The notes under the pieces are model-generated. The model was not told the origin of the DNA, ran no database searches, and worked only from the letters and a program-made list of their open reading frames with translations. A DNA stretch of 34,454 nucleotides, from NCBI GenBank assembly GCA_013349825.1, contig DUYW01000017.1, positions 1 to 34,454 on the forward strand, in the 5' to 3' direction. Source of the stretch: Gammaproteobacteria bacterium (GTDB lineage Bacteria; Pseudomonadota; Gammaproteobacteria; GCF-002020875). This document shows, in pieces, positions 9,085-21,754 of this stretch. How positions within the stretch are numbered: position 1 is the first letter of the stretch; the number at the start of each line of letters is the position of its first letter. Made by a program: the position numbers and the translations under genes.

Positions 9085-9299
9085 ACTCAAGAGTGTAGGC
9101 CAACCCGATGCTTTAAGCAATAAACTGGAATTTTATGGCTATAAATCAGACCGCCTGTAAGCTGCAACCAATCGTTCAATAATATGATCCAGGTGCCTCC
9201 AGAAAAGGTAACTATTCAGAGGTTACTAAAAAGGTTAAAGAATTTGGTAGTAGCTGTTCAGGTTGCCCCTGAATTTTACAAGCGGAAAATGTCACAAGT

Positions 9300-9316
9300 T
9301 GTTACTTAAGGTAACA
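9300..9316. promoter_or_regulatory. TGTTAC-N5-GTAACA palindrome before the kinase operon
   Basis: The inverted half-sites TGTTAC (9300-9305) and GTAACA (9311-9316) are separated by five bases. The identical architecture occurs at 14125-14141 upstream of livK. TGTTAC/GTAACA half-sites resemble those I recall for the CbrB regulator of Pseudomonas. The site ends 17 bp before the start codon at 9334, suggesting autoregulation of the operon by its own response regulator. A related, weaker pair (GTAAC 9208-9212, GTTAC 9222-9226) lies further upstream. Confidence 0.6.
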
Positions 9317-9333
9317 CTCGATACACTTCTCCG

Positions 9334-9549
9334 ATGGGTCGGCCACCAAACAACAAAGAGCAACGAATTCCTGCTGTACTGATCACAGTCGTGACACTAA
9401 TCGCCCTCACCTCGCCACTGATGCAGTGGTGGAGTAGCACAGAAAGCCCCTGGTTCACCCTCTATCTCTTGTGGGGTGGAATCATCCTCTTCATTGCACT
9501 GCTCAATACACCACATAGCAACAGTGGCCCCGGTGACACCACAGATTAA
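9334..9549 (+). CDS. Small two-TM protein preceding the symporter-kinase
   Basis: A 71-residue protein with two hydrophobic segments (about residues 12-31 and 40-58) joined by a WW/WF-containing loop, with polar ends. The stop codon overlaps the start of the symporter-kinase gene (TAATG), so translation of the two is coupled. Small two-TM proteins accompany several sodium/solute symporters as a small subunit, and a comparable role with the symporter half of the kinase is the obvious inference. An in-frame stop 27 bases upstream excludes a longer N-terminus. No ribosome-binding site stands out before the ATG. Confidence 0.7.
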   Translation: MGRPPNNKEQRIPAVLITVVTLIALTSPLMQWWSSTESPWFTLYLLWGGIILFIALLNTPHSNSGPGDTTD

Positions 9550-12500
9550 TGTCTATTGATCTCACTCTGCTCTTCGTATCAGGTGTAGTCTATCTGCTGA
9601 TCCTCTCTCTGATCGCCCATTTGGCAGACCGCGGAACCATTCCTGAACATTGGGTCAATAACCCCTGGGTTTACACCCTCTCTTTGGGGGTCTATGCCAC
9701 CTCCTGGAGCTTTTACGGCTCGGTTGGATTTGCACAATCGGAGGGGTTCCAGTTTATTGCCATCTATATCGGGGTTACTCTCGCCTTTATGCTGAGTCCG
9801 GTACTGTTACGACCCATTCTACGTCTTACTCAGGAGCATCAACTCTCCTCTCTGGCAGACCTTTTTGCTTTCCGCTACCGTAGTCAGTTTGCCGGAGTGC
9901 TGGTCACCCTGTTTATGTTGTTGGGAACACTCCCTTATCTTGCTCTGCAGATCCGCGCCATTACTGAATCTCTGCATATCCTGACACAGGAGATCCCTTC
10001 GCAGATGATTGCCCTTGGGTACTGTCTCCTGATCATCTTTTTCGCTATTCTGTTTGGTGCAAAACACACCTCCAGTCGAGAAAAAAATCATGGTCTGGTA
10101 TTGGCCATCGCCTTTGAAAGTTTAGTGAAATTGATTGCGATCTCCACGGTTGCGCTGGTTGCTCTGTTCGGCCTGTTTGATGGTTTTGGGGGGCTGAATC
10201 AGTGGCTACTGGAACATCCCAAGGCGACAGAATCCCTCTACCAACCAATCCAGCAAGGCCCCTGGGTGACGCTACTGTTTCTCGCCTTTGCTGCCGCATT
10301 TCTCCTGCCCCGGCAGTTTCACATGCTCTTTTCCGAGAACCTCGATAGCGGTCACCTTCGTATTGCCAGCTGGGCCTTCCCCCTCTTTCTACTACTCTTT
10401 AACCTCTCTATTCCAGTGCTGTTGTGGGCAGGAGAGCACATTGAGCTACAGATTCCGGCAGATTATTACATTCTGGGTATTGCACAGCAGAGCCAGATTG
10501 AGTGGTTGCCAACCTTAACCTTTATTGGTGGCCTATCAGCAGCCAGCTCAATGATTATTGTGACCACACTGGCTTTGACCTCAATGTGTCTCAACCATCT
10601 GATTCTTCCCATCAACTACCCTGCCCCATCGGTCAACCTCTACCAATGGTTACTGTGGGTACGGCGCGCACTGGTGGTGCTGATTATTTTTGCCGGTTAT
10701 CTCTTCTACACTCTGCTGCAACATAATGAGGGGTTGGTACAGTTGGGGCTGATCTCTTTTGTCGCAGTAACCCAGTTTGTTCCGGGGATTGTCGGATTAC
10801 TCTACTGGAAAGAGGCTACACGACTGGGGATGATCTGGGGACTGCTCGGTGGCATTGCCACCTGGTTTATTACGCTGATCCTTCCACTACTGCACCACTC
10901 CAACCTAATCCACCTCCCCGATCACTGGATTGATCTCCATACCCATTCCGGTATGACTTCATGGGAACTTTCCACCCTGCTCTCACTGCTCATCAATAGC
11001 ACCCTGTTTATTGTGGTTACACGCATCACCCGACAATCCAACGCAGAGTATGAGGCAGCTCACGCTTGCTGTACGGAGAGCTTCTTCTCGCCTCAAGGTG
11101 TGGTAATTGCCACTTCTCCGGGTGAGTTTTGTCGTGCACTTGCAATCAGTTTGGGTGAGAAGACAGCACAGAGAGAAGTTGATCAGGCTCTTCATGAACT
11201 GAACCTCTCTGCCGATGAATCTCGCCCCACCGAGTTACGTCAACTGCGTGAGCGACTAGAACAGAACCTCTCAGGTCTCATTGGTCCTCAACTCGCTTAT
11301 GTCATTATCAACCAGCGTCTTCACCTTGACACTGTCGGAAAGACAGCATTGGCAGACTCTATTCACCATATGGAAGAGCGACTGGAGAGTTCAAACCTAG
11401 AGCTAAAGGGACTCAATGCAGAGCTGGATGAACTGCGACGGATGCAGCGACAGATTCTGCTGAAGCTACCAATTGGTGTCTGTGTTATTGATGATCATAA
11501 CGGCATCATGCTGTGGAATAATATGATGGAGAGCCTAACAGGCATTGCAGAAAGTGATGTGCGCAGGAGAAATATCGATCAACTCCATGAACCCTGGTAC
11601 TCCCTGATCCAGCAACTACTCAATGCCTCTGAGGACCACCTTTATCGTATTCCTTCCCAGACAAAACAAAAGGCCTCCTGGTTCAACCTGCACCGCTCTT
11701 CCTATATTGAACCCTATCAAGACCAGAAACAGCACCATCGCGGTACCGTGCTGTTGATTGAAGATATCACTGAGTTGAAACGGCTGGAGTCTGAACTGAC
11801 GCATAATGATCGCCTGGCCTCCATTGGGCGGTTGGCTGCCGGTGTCGCTCATGAGATTGGAAACCCGATCACGGGCATCTCATGTATCGTACAAAACCTT
11901 CAGCACCTCTCCAATGGAGAGGAAACAGGGGAGAAAGAGCAAGAGACCGCTCAAGCCTACAGTGACATCATCACCCAGACAGAACGTATCAACCATATCC
12001 TCAAGACACTCACTCACTTCAGTCGCAGCAACAGCCAACCACGCTACCGTGAGCAGTTTGAGCTTTTACAGGTCATACAGGCGGCTATCCATCTGACTGA
12101 ATTAACCTACAAGAAGCAGAATATCCGCTTTATAGTACAGTGCCCTGATCAGCTTCGAATGGAAGGTGACCCTCAGGCAATGACCCAGGTCTTTATCAAC
12201 CTGTTGAGCAATGCCGGCGATGCCTCTGAACCAGGCTCTGAAATTCGGGTGGTTGCCACTCAGTACTCCCGGACAATCGAAATCGAGCTCAACGATCAGG
12301 GCACAGGCATCGCTGAAGAGAATCTTGAATCAGTTTTTGACCCTTTTGTGACCACCAAAACAGCTGGCCGGGGAACCGGGTTAGGGCTCTCCATTGTCCA
12401 CCGTATTATTGAAGAGCATAAAGGGACGATCACGCTCCACTCCACGCTTGGGGTTGGGACCACTGCACATATCACCCTTCCAGCATTGGAACCGTTGTAA
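9549..12500 (+). CDS. Sodium/solute symporter-fused sensor histidine kinase (CbrA-like)
   Basis: The 983-residue protein begins with a PutP-type sodium:solute symporter domain (about residues 1-490, roughly 13 membrane helices), then a linker (500-610) containing the RLEQNLSGLIGP segment usual in such kinases, a PAS domain (about 625-745), a HisKA domain with HEIGNPI around His768, and a HATPase with N box (NLLSNAGDAS, ~884), G1 (DQGTGIAEE) and G2 (GRGTGLGLSIV). This is the architecture of CbrA. The symporter half probably senses or carries a solute across the inner membrane and sets phosphorylation of the regulator encoded 46 bp downstream. The symporter, kinase and regulator order next to an importer and acs points to an organic-acid or amino-acid signal. 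Confidence 0.92.
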   Translation: MSIDLTLLFVSGVVYLLILSLIAHLADRGTIPEHWVNNPWVYTLSLGVYATSWSFYGSVGFAQSEGFQFIAIYIGVTLAFMLSPVLLRPILRLTQEHQLSSLADLFAFRYRSQFAGVLVTLFMLLGTLPYLALQIRAITESLHILTQEIPSQMIALGYCLLIIFFAILFGAKHTSSREKNHGLVLAIAFESLVKLIAISTVALVALFGLFDGFGGLNQWLLEHPKATESLYQPIQQGPWVTLLFLAFAAAFLLPRQFHMLFSENLDSGHLRIASWAFPLFLLLFNLSIPVLLWAGEHIELQIPADYYILGIAQQSQIEWLPTLTFIGGLSAASSMIIVTTLALTSMCLNHLILPINYPAPSVNLYQWLLWVRRALVVLIIFAGYLFYTLLQHNEGLVQLGLISFVAVTQFVPGIVGLLYWKEATRLGMIWGLLGGIATWFITLILPLLHHSNLIHLPDHWIDLHTHSGMTSWELSTLLSLLINSTLFIVVTRITRQSNAEYEAAHACCTESFFSPQGVVIATSPGEFCRALAISLGEKTAQREVDQALHELNLSADESRPTELRQLRERLEQNLSGLIGPQLAYVIINQRLHLDTVGKTALADSIHHMEERLESSNLELKGLNAELDELRRMQRQILLKLPIGVCVIDDHNGIMLWNNMMESLTGIAESDVRRRNIDQLHEPWYSLIQQLLNASEDHLYRIPSQTKQKASWFNLHRSSYIEPYQDQKQHHRGTVLLIEDITELKRLESELTHNDRLASIGRLAAGVAHEIGNPITGISCIVQNLQHLSNGEETGEKEQETAQAYSDIITQTERINHILKTLTHFSRSNSQPRYREQFELLQVIQAAIHLTELTYKKQNIRFIVQCPDQLRMEGDPQAMTQVFINLLSNAGDASEPGSEIRVVATQYSRTIEIELNDQGTGIAEENLESVFDPFVTTKTAGRGTGLGLSIVHRIIEEHKGTITLHSTLGVGTTAHITLPALEPL

Positions 12501-12546
12501 GAGCACATCAACTAAGGAGCCTATGAATAACTCATGAGAACACCAG

Positions 12547-13851
12547 ATGTATAAAATATTAATCATTGAAGATGAGAAGCTGATTCGGGAAGCACTCACA
12601 ACACTGCTGGAACGTAATGACTATAGTGTCAAAGCTGTCGACTCTGTCGAGTCTGCTGAGCAACATGAGCTACACAGCTTTCACCTTATTCTCAGTGATG
12701 TACGTCTACCCGGTCTACCCGGTACTGAAATCATTCAACGTGCGGCCCCAGTTCCCGTCATTATTATGACCAGTTACGCCGCTGTTGAATCGGCGGTAGA
12801 GGCGATGCGGATGGGGGCAATCGATTACATCTCTAAACCTTTTAATCATGACGAGATGTTAATGGTAATCGGGCGTGTACTACGTGATCGCCAGAGCCAG
12901 AAATCTTGTGAGGCACTGAAGAAGGATCTCTCCTCAATCTATCCGGTTGACCAGATTATCGGCAATAGTGAAGAGATGGTGCCAGTATTTCAGCGCTTGG
13001 AAAAGGTAGCACCTACCGACAGTACAGTCTTGATCATTGGGGAATCGGGTACCGGAAAAGAGTTAATTGCTCGGGCACTGCATGCAAAAAGTAATCGTGC
13101 CGACGATCCATTCGTCACCTTCAGCTGTACAGCAGCCTCAAAAGATTTAATGGAGGCGGAGCTATTTGGAATAAGTCGTAGTAGTGTACATCGAGAGCAC
13201 TGCCTCATTGATGAAGCAGAGGGAGGAACCCTCTTTCTCGATGAGATTGGTGAACTACCTCTCTCTGCACAAGGGCGTTTGTTGCAACTGTTGCAACCGG
13301 GTGATTTGGAGCCACATCGTGGTGGCAATATCCGAATTCTTGCATCCACCCACCAAGATTTGCGCAAACTGGTTCAGGAGGAACTATTCAGAAGCGATCT
13401 CTATTTTCGCCTCCGGGTCATTGAGATCATCCTGCCTCCACTACGCAAGCGCGGTGATGACATTACCCTGTTGGCGATCCACCTGCTTAAGGTGAGCTGC
13501 AACCATCTCAATATACAACCTCTTAAAATCAGTAAAGACTCTTTTGAAGCAATTCGTCGCTACCGCTGGCCGGGGAATGTGCGAGAGCTGGCCAACTCCA
13601 TGGAGCGTGCGGCGCTATTATGTGATGGAGAGCAGATCACTCCTGAGTTACTCTCCATTGACCACTCCATTGGAGCAACACCGTCAGAAGCTGAGCTTGA
13701 GGAGAAGCTATCTCTGGAAGAGTATTTCCGAAATTTTGTGCTCCAACATCAGGAACAGATGACCGAAACCGAATTGGCCAAGCGACTGGGTATCAGTCGA
13801 AAGTCTTTATGGATGCGCCGCCAGCGCTTTGGAATTCCCCGGAGGAAATAG
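12547..13851 (+). CDS. NtrC-class response regulator lacking GAFTGA
   Basis: The 434-residue protein has a receiver domain (phospho-acceptor Asp51 in SDVRLPG, Lys in SKPFNH), an AAA+ domain with Walker A GESGTGKE (~165) and Walker B GGTLFLDEIG (~226), sensor-II-like RWPGNVREL, and a Fis-type helix-turn-helix at the end (ELAKRLGISRKSLWMRR). After ELFG (205-208), where sigma-54 activators carry GAFTGA, it reads ISRSSVHREHCLIDEAE, about four residues shorter than usual. NtrC-class proteins without this loop (for example Rhodobacter NtrC and TyrR) do not work with sigma-54, so this one probably controls sigma-70 promoters. It is the cognate partner of the upstream symporter-kinase. Confidence 0.92.
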   Translation: MYKILIIEDEKLIREALTTLLERNDYSVKAVDSVESAEQHELHSFHLILSDVRLPGLPGTEIIQRAAPVPVIIMTSYAAVESAVEAMRMGAIDYISKPFNHDEMLMVIGRVLRDRQSQKSCEALKKDLSSIYPVDQIIGNSEEMVPVFQRLEKVAPTDSTVLIIGESGTGKELIARALHAKSNRADDPFVTFSCTAASKDLMEAELFGISRSSVHREHCLIDEAEGGTLFLDEIGELPLSAQGRLLQLLQPGDLEPHRGGNIRILASTHQDLRKLVQEELFRSDLYFRLRVIEIILPPLRKRGDDITLLAIHLLKVSCNHLNIQPLKISKDSFEAIRRYRWPGNVRELANSMERAALLCDGEQITPELLSIDHSIGATPSEAELEEKLSLEEYFRNFVLQHQEQMTETELAKRLGISRKSLWMRRQRFGIPRRK

Positions 13852-13868
13852 TTATAAGATAATATTAG

Positions 13869-14027
13869 GTGCCTGTCCAAGAATAGAGAGCCTACTGCGG
13901 GAAAGCTGAATTTGGCCATATTCCCCCATCCTTTTCGTTAAATAGTAGAACTATTCGCCTCAAATGATGACAAAATCTGTCTCAAATCAGCCTCCCCTCG
14001 TTACGACTTCTATTCTCGGACAACCAC
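13869..14027. mobile_element. MITE-like element with ~21-bp inverted ends
   Basis: The left end GTGCCTGTCCAAGAATAGAG and the reverse complement of the right end, GTGGTTGTCCGAGAATAGAA, match at about 16 of 20 positions. The element is 159 bp long with no coding frame. It is flanked by TTAG on the left and CTAG on the right, both YTAR tetranucleotides as preferred by IS5-family transposases, so it may be a non-autonomous derivative. An internal AATAGT-AGA-ACTATT hairpin is present. It lies between the regulator gene and livK. Confidence 0.65.
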
Positions 14028-14031
14028 CTAG

Positions 14032-14053
14032 GGAATTTCTGAATAAGTCTGGG
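14032..14053 (-). repeat. Solo end of the dispersed repeat family
   Basis: GGAATTTCTGAATAAGTCTGGG is the inverted right end of the repeat at 104-179 and 19674-19749 with about three changes. It directly follows the CTAG flank of the 13869-14027 element. No partner end was found to its right, so it is a remnant. Confidence 0.5.
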
Positions 14054-14114
14054 CTATTGTTCAGTTGTCGGAGTACTTAGTATTTAATCAAATTTTTCTA
14101 CGACATCCACAGAA

Positions 14115-14161
14115 GTAACAGCCATGTTACCTTTCGTAACACTTATAGATTATTCTGTTAC
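14115..14161. promoter_or_regulatory. Cluster of four TGTTAC/GTAACA half-sites upstream of livK
   Basis: Half-sites occur at 14115-14120 (GTAACA), 14125-14130 (TGTTAC), 14136-14141 (GTAACA) and 14156-14161 (TGTTAC). The middle pair forms TGTTAC-N5-GTAACA, identical in layout to 9300-9316. Start-to-start spacings of 10, 11 and 20 bases put the sites near one face of the helix. They lie about 230-280 bp before livK and are the best candidate binding region for the regulator encoded at 12547-13851. Confidence 0.65.
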
Positions 14162-14393
14162 TTTTCGGATCATAGTATAGAAAAAATCTCAAAAAAACCC
14201 TAAAACAATCAAACATTTAATTTGATTCGTGTAGATGAATACGCCAGAATGGGGGGACAAGATCTACATACCTATACTCAGTCTTCAGGCGCTCTCGACA
14301 TCACCGATGGACGCTTCTGAACTGAGCAAACGGATGATCTACCAAAGTCACTAATTTTAAAGATTGAGATCAACCTGGAAGGAGAGAGAAAAT

Positions 14394-15734
14394 ATGTCCG
14401 ATAATAATTGGAGTCGTAGAGATGTACTCAAGGCGAGCGTTGCATTTGCAGCAGCAGGAGCCGCGCCAATGTTCTTCACCAAAGATGCATGGGCCGCCAA
14501 AAACTTTATGAACAATCCGGGTAGCTCTTCTACCGTTACCCTGGGTTTTAATGTGCCTCAGACAGGCGCCTATGCCGATGAAGGTGCAGATGAACTTCGT
14601 GCATTCAAGCTGGCGGTGAAGCACCTCAATGGTGAAGGTGACAGTGGTATGATGAATACCATGAAGCCCTCTGTGCTAAAAGGCAATGGTATTCTTGGCA
14701 AAAAGGTGACTTATGTGACCGGCGACACCCAGACCAAATCAGATGCTGCACGCGCCTCTGCCAAGCGCATGATTGAGAAAGATGGCGTAATTATGTTCTC
14801 GGGCGGCTCCTCTTCCGGTGTCGCAATCGCCGTACAAGGGCTTGCCCAAGAGATGGGGGTGGTCTTTATGGCGGGTCTGACGCACTCCAATGACACAACC
14901 GGCAAAGACAAACGTCGTTATGGTTTCCGTCACTTCTTCAATGCGAAGATGTCCGGTTCTGCACTGGGTCCGGTGCTGAAAGAGCGTATGGGAACAGACC
15001 GTAATGCCTATCATTTGACAGCAGACTACACCTGGGGATGGACTCAGGAGCAGTCTATTAAAGAGACTACCGAAAATCTGGGCTGGAATACGGCCAAAGC
15101 GGTCAAGACTCCGGTAGGTGCGGGTGACTTCTCACAGTACATCACCCCCATCCTCAACTCTGGTGCCGACACACTAATTCTGAATCACTACGGCAAGGAT
15201 ATGATCAACTCCCTGACTCAGGCCGTTCAGTTCGGTCTGCGTGACAAGCAGGTGAATGGTAAAGATTTCCAGATTATCGTACCGCTCTACTCGCGTCTGA
15301 TGGCGCAGGGTGCAGGCGAAAACCTCAAGGGTATTCTCGGAACCACCAACTGGAATTGGGCACTCTCGGATCACGGTTCACAGGCATTCGTGAAGTCTTT
15401 TGGTAACGAATATGGTTTCCCACCTTCACAGGCTGCACACACTTGCTATGTACAGACACTGCTCTATGCAAATGCCTGTGAGATGGCAGGTACCTTCTAC
15501 CCACCTGAAGTGATCAAACAGCTTGAAGGCTTCAAGTTTGACGGTATGGGCAACGGTAAAACGGAGTACCGCGCAGCGGATCACCAGTGCTTCAAGGATG
15601 TTCTCGTTGTAGAGGGTAACCAGAACCCTTCCAGCCAGTTCGACCTACTGAAGATCGTTAAGGAGGTGCCACGCTCACAGGTTGAGTATGATGCCTCTAT
15701 CTTTGGTGGTAATCTCGGTCCTTACGAGGTCTAA
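14394..15734 (+). CDS. ABC transporter substrate-binding protein (LivK/UrtA-like), Tat-exported
   Basis: From ATG 14394, placed by a GGAGAGAG ribosome-binding site, the protein has 446 residues. The N-terminus carries a twin-arginine signal (SRRDVLKA) and probable cleavage after AWA near residue 38. The rest is a type 1 periplasmic binding protein of the branched-chain amino acid/amide family (GFNVPQTGAYADEGADELRA near the start, FSGGSSSGVAIAVQ in the first lobe). It binds a small solute in the periplasm for the permease genes downstream. A terminator separates it from livH, so it is probably made in excess of the permease, as is usual for binding proteins. The substrate is not readable; the neighbouring acs gene suggests a short-chain carboxylate or a related amide or amino acid. 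Confidence 0.88.
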   Translation: MSDNNWSRRDVLKASVAFAAAGAAPMFFTKDAWAAKNFMNNPGSSSTVTLGFNVPQTGAYADEGADELRAFKLAVKHLNGEGDSGMMNTMKPSVLKGNGILGKKVTYVTGDTQTKSDAARASAKRMIEKDGVIMFSGGSSSGVAIAVQGLAQEMGVVFMAGLTHSNDTTGKDKRRYGFRHFFNAKMSGSALGPVLKERMGTDRNAYHLTADYTWGWTQEQSIKETTENLGWNTAKAVKTPVGAGDFSQYITPILNSGADTLILNHYGKDMINSLTQAVQFGLRDKQVNGKDFQIIVPLYSRLMAQGAGENLKGILGTTNWNWALSDHGSQAFVKSFGNEYGFPPSQAAHTCYVQTLLYANACEMAGTFYPPEVIKQLEGFKFDGMGNGKTEYRAADHQCFKDVLVVEGNQNPSSQFDLLKIVKEVPRSQVEYDASIFGGNLGPYEV

Positions 15735-18714: not shown

Positions 18715-19478
18715 GTACAGAAAACAGACCACATGCCCCAGGTACACCGGCAATTCAGCGCACCGGTTCTGCCCCTGCATTTTTCTCCTGCTGGGACCTT
18801 CACTCTTACTATGGTGAGAGTTATATAGTTCAGGGGGTTAACTTTGATATTCGTGAAGGTGAAATTGTTGCCCTGCTTGGTCGTAATGGTGCAGGCAAGA
18901 CCTCGACCCTGCGCTCTATCGCCCGTGCTACTGAGCCCGAAATGCGTCATGGAGAGATCTGGCTGGACCATAAGCCTCTTCACAACATGAAGGCCTATGA
19001 GGCGGCACAATTAGGCGTCTCCCTGGTGCCCGAGGATCGCTGTATCATTGCAGGGTTAACGGTAGAGGAAAACCTTGAACTTGCACAGATTGAGGGCCCT
19101 ATTGGCTGGTCTCTGGAGCGTATCTATGAGTCTTTCCCCCGCCTGGGTGAACGTCGTACCCAGGATGGTGTCACCCTCTCAGGTGGTGAACAGCAGATGC
19201 TGGCTGTAGCCCGTGCATTGGCACGCGACATCAAACTACTATTACTGGACGAACCTTATGAGGGGCTGGCACCCGTAATCGTACAGGAGATTGAGCGCAT
19301 CCTGGAGAGTATCAAGTCCCTCGGTATTACTACAGTCATCGTGGAACAGAATGCAATCGCAGCACTTCATCTGGCAGACCGCGCACTCATTCTGGATATG
19401 GGGCAAATTGTGTTTGACGGCACGGCTCAAGAGGTACTGGACAACGAGGAGCTACGCCAGCAATATTTGGCGATCTGA
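18711..19478 (+). CDS. ABC transporter ATPase, LivF family
   Basis: A 255-residue ATPase with Walker A GRNGAGKTS, canonical signature LSGGEQQML, Walker B LLLLDEPYEGLAP and switch EQNA. Compared with typical LivF (~235 residues) it has ~25 extra N-terminal residues rich in Pro, Thr and Arg before the first strand, so the true start could be internal, although the ATGA overlap with livG supports the annotated one. It is the second ATPase of the importer. The 335-bp gap to acs follows. Confidence 0.93.
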   Translation: MSTENRPHAPGTPAIQRTGSAPAFFSCWDLHSYYGESYIVQGVNFDIREGEIVALLGRNGAGKTSTLRSIARATEPEMRHGEIWLDHKPLHNMKAYEAAQLGVSLVPEDRCIIAGLTVEENLELAQIEGPIGWSLERIYESFPRLGERRTQDGVTLSGGEQQMLAVARALARDIKLLLLDEPYEGLAPVIVQEIERILESIKSLGITTVIVEQNAIAALHLADRALILDMGQIVFDGTAQEVLDNEELRQQYLAI

Positions 19479-19813: not shown

Positions 19814-21754
19814 ATGAGTGATGAAAAAATCTATCCTATTGATGAGGCCTTTGCTGCCCAATCTAACATTACTGAAGCACAATACAATGAGATGTATCAA
19901 CGCTCGGTTGATGATCCAGAATCTTTCTGGGAAGAGCAGGCCAACAAATATCTATCCTGGTTCAAACCCTGGGATACCACACTGGACTGGAGCTTCAAGG
20001 ATGATATTCGTATCAACTGGTTTAAAGGTGGCAAGCTCAACGCATCCTACAACTGTCTGGACCGCCATTTAGAGGAGCGTGGAGATCAGGTTGCCATCAT
20101 CTGGGAAGGCGATGATCCCAATGAAGATCGCAAAATTACCTATACCGAACTCCATGCCGAGGTTAGCCAGTTCGCCAACGTGCTCAAGTCTCGGGGTGTC
20201 AAAAAAGGAGATCGGGTCTCCATCTACATGCCAATGATCCCGGAAGCTGCGGTTGCCATGCTCGCCTGTACCCGAATCGGTGCCATGCATTCGGTGGTCT
20301 TTGGTGGCTTCTCCTCTGACGCACTGCGTGACCGAATTCAGGATTCTGATTGCCAGGTTGTCATCACTGCTGACCAGAGCGTACGGGGTGGTAAACGTGT
20401 TCCACTCAAGAGTAATGCAGATCAGGCAATGGCCGCCTGTCCCAACGTACACACCTGTCTGGTTGTGAAACGTGGTGGCGATCCGGTTGAGTGGAATGAT
20501 GAGCGTGATATCTGGTACCACGATGCGATGGCGGATGCCTCAACCGACTGCCCTCCTGAGGAGATGGATGCCGAAGATCCCATGTTCATCCTCTACACCT
20601 CCGGGTCGACAGGAAAACCAAAAGGGGTGCAGCACACCACAGGGGGCTACATGCTCCACGCTGCAATCACCCATAAGCTCGCCTTTGATTACAAAGATGG
20701 AGAGAACTACTGGTGTACAGCCGATGTGGGCTGGGTAACGGGACACACCTACATCCTCTATGGTCCACTGGCCAACGGTGCAACCACAATCATGTTTGAA
20801 GGTATCCCGACCTACCCCACCGTATCCCGCTTCTGGGAAGTTTGTGATAAACACAATGTTGCCACCTTCTATACCGCACCGACAGCTATACGTGCGCTGA
20901 TGTCTGCCGGTGATGATCCCGTAAAGAAAACCTCCAGAAAGTCACTGCGTCTTCTCGGTACCGTCGGAGAACCCATCAACCCCGAGGCCTGGGAGTGGTA
21001 TTACAAAGTAGTCGGAGACAGCCGCTGTCCGGTTGTCGATACCTGGTGGCAGACCGAGACCGGAGGTCATATGATCACCCCGCTGCCTGGTGCCCACCCG
21101 TTGAAACCCGGCTCAGCCAGCCGCCCTTTCCTGGGTGTGCAACCCATCCTGTTAGATGATCAAGGCAACGAGCTTGAAGGCGCCATCTCTGGAAACCTGG
21201 CGATCAAGTTCCCATGGCCCGGCATGATGCGCACCATCTATGGTGACCATAAGCGCTTTGGTGAGACCTACTTCAGCATGTACCCCGGTTACTACTTCAC
21301 CGGTGATGGCGCGCGTCGTGATGAAGATAACTACTGGTGGATTACCGGACGTGTCGATGATGTACTGAATGTGTCCGGTCACCGTCTGGGGACCGCAGAG
21401 ATTGAGTCTGCACTGGTACTACACGACCTGGTTGCAGAATCTGCCGTAGTGGGCTATCCACACGAGATTACCGGTCAGGGCATCTACGCCTTTGTCACCT
21501 TGATGCAGGGTACAGAAGCAACCGATGAGCTGAAACGCGAACTGGTTGCACAGGTGCGTAAAGAGATCGGTCCAATTGCCAAAGTCAACCTGATCCAGTG
21601 GGCACCCGGCCTTCCCAAGACTCGCTCTGGAAAGATCATGCGCCGCATCCTGCGCAAAGTAGCCGCTAATGAGTTGGATAGCCTGGGGGATACCTCAACA
21701 TTGGCTGATCCATCTGTGGTTGAAGAGCTGATTGAAAACCGGATGAACCGGTAA
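19814..21754 (+). CDS. acs: Acetyl-CoA synthetase (AMP-forming)
   Basis: The 646-residue enzyme shows the full set of ANL-superfamily motifs: the P-loop [11 protein letters not shown] (~258-268), acetate-pocket region TWWQTETGG (~405-413), [17 protein letters not shown], the hinge [13 protein letters not shown] and the catalytic [11 protein letters not shown] with Lys607, the residue acetylated in Acs regulation. It converts acetate, ATP and CoA to acetyl-CoA in the cytosol. AGGAGG at 19798-19803 supports the start. Lying after the importer, it probably activates the imported acid. Propionate is an alternative substrate that cannot be excluded by eye, but length and motifs fit Acs best. Confidence 0.95.

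Follow-up and report, generated by a model that had tools for sequence, protein, structure and literature searches.

We analysed a 34,454-nucleotide contig of a gammaproteobacterium (lineage GCF-002020875, GenBank assembly GCA_013349825.1, contig DUYW01000017.1; hereafter the window), in which two copies of the 17-base-pair (bp) palindrome TGTTAC-N5-GTAACA flank the genes of a CbrA-like transporter–histidine kinase and a CbrB-like response regulator. From its conservation and placement, this dyad is very probably bound by the CbrB-related regulator. We propose, with a probability of about 70% for the model as a whole, that the dyad is the CbrB operator, that bound CbrB represses its own operon at the small gene cbrX, and that control of the transport gene livK has come under sigma70 RNA polymerase after the loss of sigma54 output. 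The system of the window would hence be a variant of the CbrXAB family that has lost its sigma54 output, not a sigma54 system. The elements on which this reading rests are the following (ORF, open reading frame).

9300–9316, no strand assigned: CbrB-type operator dyad TGTTACTTAAGGTAACA, candidate autoregulatory site, from the motif scan, present ahead of cbrX/cbrA in 56 of the 112 loci compared.
9334–9549, plus strand: cbrX-like small membrane ORF of 71 amino acids, with a 1-nucleotide overlap with cbrA (TAATG) and a match to chain X of PDB entry 10ed.
9549–12500, plus strand: cbrA-like transporter–histidine kinase of 983 amino acids, with SLC5-STAC-PAS-HisKA-HATPase domains, from a PDB match and a kinase tree.
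12547–13851, plus strand: cbrB-like NtrC-family response regulator of 434 amino acids, Walker A/B kept, GAFTGA loop absent.
14115–14120, minus strand: half-site GTAACA (R), from the half-site scan, conserved in the congener G002.
14125–14141, no strand assigned: CbrB-type operator dyad TGTTACCTTTCGTAACA, upstream of livK, from the motif scan and the livK-upstream comparison in relatives.
14156–14161, plus strand: half-site TGTTAC (F), from the half-site scan, conserved in G002.
14394–15734, plus strand: livK-like gene for a periplasmic binding protein, which opens the ABC operon livKHMGF (ending at 19478), with acs (19814–21754) after it.

The motif scan placed the exact dyad at 9300–9316 and 14125–14141, identical and with the same N5 spacing, as the initial annotation had read it from the sequence alone; the two extra half-sites that it had described near livK are also there, at 14115 and 14156, with start-to-start distances of 10, 11 and 20 bases among the four. 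When up to two mismatches are allowed, the window holds 3 matches versus 0.86 expected. The hexamer TGTTAC by itself shows no enrichment there (16 versus 11.7 expected), so that the evidence lies in the dyad and its placement. In the whole genome to which the window belongs (G000, 2.87 Mb in 274 contigs) the dyad is neither frequent nor randomly placed, with three exact copies versus none of the reversed-pattern control. Two of these are the window copies, 4.8 kb apart, and the third is intergenic on contig C116, about 70 bp upstream of the start of a methylase-like ORF, which we take to be HsdM-like. Relaxing the pattern to YGTTAC-N5-GTAACR adds one site, inside a dnaK-like ORF, and the 24 one-mismatch sites of this genome correspond mostly, in the 13 loci read, to another repeat and to coding sequence.

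To this we can add the conservation of the operator among relatives. In a sample of 369 gammaproteobacterial genomes, the N terminus of the kinase was matched at an E value of 1e-30 in 70, of which 39 were counted as carrying full-length orthologs (at E 1.6e-123 or lower; that of G363 is divided between two contigs). At least one YGTTAC-N5-GTAACR site is present in 35 of these 39 genomes versus 85 of the 330 others, and the 39 contain 72 such sites versus 29 for the reversed control (per-genome sums for both groups were added by hand from a table). We also searched 140–340 bp upstream of cbrA in 112 de-duplicated, non-redundant loci, accepting matches at 11 or more of the 12 positions of the relaxed pattern. 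The dyad was found in 56 loci, 40 of them exact, with 1 of 112 for the reversed control and 0.08% for shuffles. A chance origin of the dyad is ruled out by the own-genome, class-wide and cbrA-upstream controls. Moreover, it precedes livK in 8 of the 11 testable genomes with cbrA versus 0 of the 8 without it, and the livK of cbrA-less genomes is up to 88% identical, yet has no dyad. The dyad thus travels with the CbrAB pair: it is found close to both cbrX and livK, and it precedes livK only in genomes that have cbrA. This pattern supports CbrB as its ligand. On this comparative evidence both promoters are likely targets of the regulator, as had been suggested. The initial annotation had further placed the first copy before the kinase operon; this holds for the operon but not for the kinase gene itself, since the 71-amino-acid ORF lies between and the dyad ends 17 bp before it.

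Two other elements of this genome resemble the operator or its half-site. A second repeat, TGTAACAAAATGTAACA, is scattered in it with its variants (C116:1902, C9:37643, C18:24832, C163, C168 and others); it resembles the half-site but is of the direct-repeat type, and the C116 copy adjoins an Arc-like DNA-binding ORF. A site with one mismatch, TGATACACAAAGTAACA, lies between two divergent genes (L011 1501–1517, that is, C48:10724–10740) and is a possible further target, the flanking genes looking like amino-acid and TRAP-type binding proteins.

Judged by identity, structure matches and phylogeny, the kinase and regulator of the window are orthologs of Pseudomonas CbrA and CbrB, in agreement with the CbrAB-like character first ascribed to them. 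They are 45% (CbrA) and 49% (CbrB) identical to the pair of G166 that adjoins a CrcZ gene. Over residues 1–587 the kinase matches the kinase chain of PDB 10ed (10ed_A, E 3.5e-170), and the 71-amino-acid ORF matches its chain X, of 58 amino acids (E 0.0018). The available text of PMC13022988 describes a CbrA–CbrX complex, and we take 10ed to be probably that structure because of the pairing of a kinase with a small chain and the length of the latter. A tree of 42 kinases splits the family of CbrA from two outgroup rows (L116 and L117) with a support of 100/100, and the CbrA of G166 is nested within the family. The helix-turn-helix recognition region, ISRKxLWxRRQRxxIPR, is nearly the same in the CbrB proteins of the window and of G166, which fits a shared half-site. 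No Rfam match for a crcZ RNA downstream of cbrB was found in the window, nor any match to RF01675 in the whole genome.

The half-site had been likened to the CbrB site of Pseudomonas, and it is indeed equal to the published subsite, for which the excerpted text of PMC8871633 gives the consensus TGTTAC-N12-14-GTAACA-N15-19-GTAACA. According to the same excerpts and those of PMC6296734, CbrB of P. putida binds non-palindromic subsites as a monomer; comparison of the sequences thus shows that the N5 dyad uses this half-site in another geometry. Before the crcZ of Pseudomonas the half-sites are the same and the arrangement is another. We considered these subsites as relics of N5 dyads and set the idea aside, as the partner half-sites are not clearly kept. 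In the openly licensed literature, TGTTAC together with GTAACA led only to the Pseudomonas CbrB work as relevant, which does not establish absence from print.

In the CbrB of the window and of G002 the GAFTGA loop is absent and Walker A and B are present; in the window ELFGISRSSVHREHCL takes its place, and the alignment makes clear that the loop is shortened. No sigma54 promoter with the GG and GC steps was found within 500 bp after the window cbrB. In the 500 bp before livK the best −24/−12 score is 10/15 in both genomes, with none at 61–64 bp, and a looser scan gave chance level across the whole window. Among relatives whose loop is intact, conservatively changed or unread, a −24/−12-like box is found 61–64 bp downstream of the livK dyad in 9 of 9 (GAFTGA in five, GAFTSA in two, unreadable or not on the contig in L144 and G363). 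The box is missing at livK in all four loop-less genomes, namely the window, G002, G356 and G261. Since the last two form a branch separate from the genus of the window, the loss of the loop and that of the box coincide in 4/4 genomes and in two lineages.

Relatives with GAFTGA have the box 50–75 bp downstream in 13 of 16 dyad clusters, the exceptions being L082 (none), one of the two in L108 (distant, on the other strand) and L114 (at 21 bp). The genes close to these clusters are labelled symporter-like, cyclic-nucleotide-domain-like, acs and livK, in part presumptively. Other orthologs carry the conservative variants GAFTSA, GAYTGA and GAFSGA, and if these are counted as lost, GAFTGA was lost repeatedly in the family (at least five label changes on the tree). 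In L101, L105, L107, L110 and L112 the acidic residues of Walker B are gone as well, so that the ATPase of these CbrB proteins is probably dead; their helix-turn-helix is conserved.

The livK array recurs in G002 with all four half-sites at identical spacing. Its core bases are 20/20 identical between the two promoters, versus 134/295 (45%) elsewhere. It stands at −269 in the window and at −232 to −337 in most relatives, and the sequence directly 3′ of it is not conserved in G002. Further downstream we noted one candidate promoter.

14222–14250, plus strand: candidate sigma70 promoter TTGATT-N17-CAGAAT for livK, a weak 8/12 match.

This pair lies 97 bp from the start of the dyad; G002 has TTGCCT-N17-CAGAAT at 98 bp, and no pair of this type was seen at the livK of G356 or G261. 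It offers the sigma70 model a weak place to start and no proof. The order livKHMGF–acs suggests that the transporter imports a substrate of acetate-type metabolism, and a role in carboxylate uptake seems plausible. The relative G159 (L099) has livKHMGF and then acs, in the same order, located after cbrXAB.

At cbrX the operator appears to be merged with the promoter.

9299–9304, plus strand: TTGTTA, candidate −35 hexamer of the cbrX promoter, overlapping the left half-site.
9322–9327, plus strand: TACACT, candidate −10 hexamer, 17 bp from TTGTTA and 6 nucleotides before the ATG.

A T directly precedes the dyad in all 8 near-relative rows read, and the order T, dyad, 5 nucleotides, TANNCT, 6 nucleotides, ATG is invariant in the window, two congeners and five near relatives (L079, which is the same as L136; L126; L128; L130; and L133). 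In other relatives the gap between the dyad and the cbrX start is longer or different, so that the exact geometry is a property of the group of the window. Transcription would be expected to start on the ATG, giving a putative leaderless message. An operator in this position would overlie the −35 hexamer and the spacer of a sigma70 promoter. CbrB bound there should shut off its own operon, and we infer negative autoregulation.

Taken together, the model would run as follows. The regulator encoded between the two dyads would bind both of them, and the four half-sites at livK, spaced by nearly whole helical turns, would serve to control the gene from upstream. In its ancestral form, kept in relatives, the element would be a sigma54 enhancer, with a GAFTGA-type CbrB on a dyad or a pair of dyads driving a −24/−12 promoter some 50–75 bp on (61–64 bp at livK) for livK, acs and symporter genes. 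In the genus of the window, and separately in the lineage of G356 and G261, GAFTGA and the livK box were lost and the operator was retained. With loop and box gone and the operator kept, CbrB would have to act through sigma70 RNA polymerase at livK, where we favour activation from about 120 bp upstream, a mode known for NtrC proteins devoid of GAFTGA, over simple repression.

Several observations weigh against this model. Half of the 112 loci (56), mostly Pseudomonadales, have no dyad upstream of cbrA, and 0 of the 20 named Pseudomonadaceae-type loci listed have it there; livK lacks it in three genomes with cbrA (G206, G298 and G194). A −24/−12 match of score 12 arises by chance 0.35 times per 500 bp, and hence only the fixed distance is informative. 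The loop-less lineages are few (two), sister genomes not being independent, and rpoN is still in the genome, so sigma54 itself has not been lost. Finally, the livK sigma70 match reaches only 8/12 and was seen in two genomes; matches of this quality often arise by chance.

Part of the evidence would also fit a CbrB that is only a repressor in this genus, blocking cbrX and, from 14115–14161, a sigma70 promoter of livK until the kinase signal relieves it. Without GAFTGA the known route of activation is gone, the cbrX dyad covers the core promoter, and the last half-site, at 14156, is followed by an AT-rich stretch that resembles a −10 element. However, the array keeps the position of the sigma54 enhancer, far from the livK start, the sequence right after it is not shared with G002, and the protein retains Walker A and B, like NtrC activators without GAFTGA; we regard this alternative as possible but doubtful. 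A continued use of sigma54 by an altered loop and a diverged −24/−12 promoter is unlikely. The gene rpoN is present and other orthologs do show conservative variants of the motif, but the window loop is shortened and without it, and the 500 bp before livK in the window and G002 reach no more than the 10/15 given above, with nothing at the fixed distance.

A decaying regulator with functionless relics of dyads would agree with the repeated loss of GAFTGA, the disappearance of Walker B residues in several lineages and the absence of cbrA from half of the six genomes of the genus. We nevertheless hold it for improbable, as cbrX, cbrA and cbrB are all intact ORFs, the array cores are identical between species in otherwise divergent promoters, and the livK dyad is kept in two loop-less lineages. 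It is about as improbable that another transcription factor binds the dyad and that the linkage to cbrXAB is indirect: related half-sites do occur in the different repeat TGTAACAAAATGTAACA elsewhere in the genome, but dyad presence follows cbrA across genomes and at livK, and the half-site is that of Pseudomonas CbrB. The ACTU motif of CrbR was rejected as the identity of the dyad, its sequence being different (for example, TACTACCATCGTCGAAT).

Among known systems, CbrXAB of Pseudomonas shares with the window the order cbrX-cbrA-cbrB and the cbrX/cbrA overlap (excerpts of PMC8871633, PMC6296734, PMC6591292 and PMC13022988), as well as the orthologous kinase and regulator, the TGTTAC/GTAACA half-site and a nearly identical recognition helix. 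Unlike Pseudomonas, the window has N5 dyads (spacings 10, 11 and 20) rather than F1-N12-14-R1-N15-19-R2, a dyad at cbrX and livK as a target, and is devoid of GAFTGA, sigma54 box and CrcZ. NtrC proteins without GAFTGA, such as those of Caulobacter and R. capsulatus and VspR of V. cholerae, act at sigma70 promoters, and Caulobacter NtrC represses its own operon (PMC10274813, available text); with this precedent the mechanism would be ordinary in kind. Window CbrB is likewise an NtrC-type regulator without the sigma54 loop and with the rest of the AAA+ domain kept, but it differs in subfamily, signal and operator, in that its operator is also used by sigma54-type orthologs, and in the parallel loss of the promoter box. 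The CrbS/CrbR acetate system has an SLC5-STAC kinase and acs and symporter targets too, whereas CrbR is LuxR-type with another inverted repeat, ACTU (PMC5715377, in excerpt), and the window regulator is NtrC-type. With sigma54 enhancer-binding proteins such as NtrC the system shares an AAA+ regulator, 17-bp dyads and, in relatives, tandem sites about two helical turns apart; the window differs in having neither the loop nor a −24/−12 promoter.

The CbrXAB system is also more widespread than its literature implies. A scan of named genomes gave at least 80 cbrA loci, and among the matches listed there are orthologs in Sedimenticola, Thiodiazotropha, Thioalkalivibrio, Spiribacter, Pseudomonas and two Pyxidicoccus; many of the non-Pseudomonadaceae loci listed carry the conserved operator. 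The two Pyxidicoccus genomes (Myxococcota; L155 and L157) have a full-length CbrA ortholog and a GAFTGA CbrB, probably acquired by transfer. A Pseudomonas-type cbrAB locus was found in L173, labelled Pantoea sp. Ap-967, a label that is probably wrong. Of the 6 genomes in the genus of the window, 3 are without cbrA; these congeners (G001, G003 and G005, of 1.6–1.9 Mb) lack both cbrA and livK, as if the system had been lost along with genome reduction. Contigs C33 and C35 of the window's own genome (L008 and L009) have the same gene neighbourhood in opposite orientation, perhaps a repeat or an assembly duplicate. For CbrAB with Thioalkalivibrio no paper was found in the openly licensed literature, which does not establish absence from print. 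In the text available to us, PMC6296734 and PMC8871633 call CbrAB exclusive to the Pseudomonadaceae, a claim that the loci found here contradict.

At even odds, we further suggest that CbrB exchanged its polymerase partner in at least two lineages of Gammaproteobacteria, with operator, kinase and target gene all retained, and that CbrXAB is a widespread system of which the Pseudomonas version is a derived branch with altered operator geometry. What is unusual here is the comparative series at one operator, together with the spread of CbrXAB beyond the Pseudomonadaceae. If the model is true, control of livK would have passed from sigma54 to sigma70 without a change in the DNA sites of the regulator, and the natural series GAFTGA, GAFTSA, GAFIGA and none, at a retained operator, would make this change directly testable.

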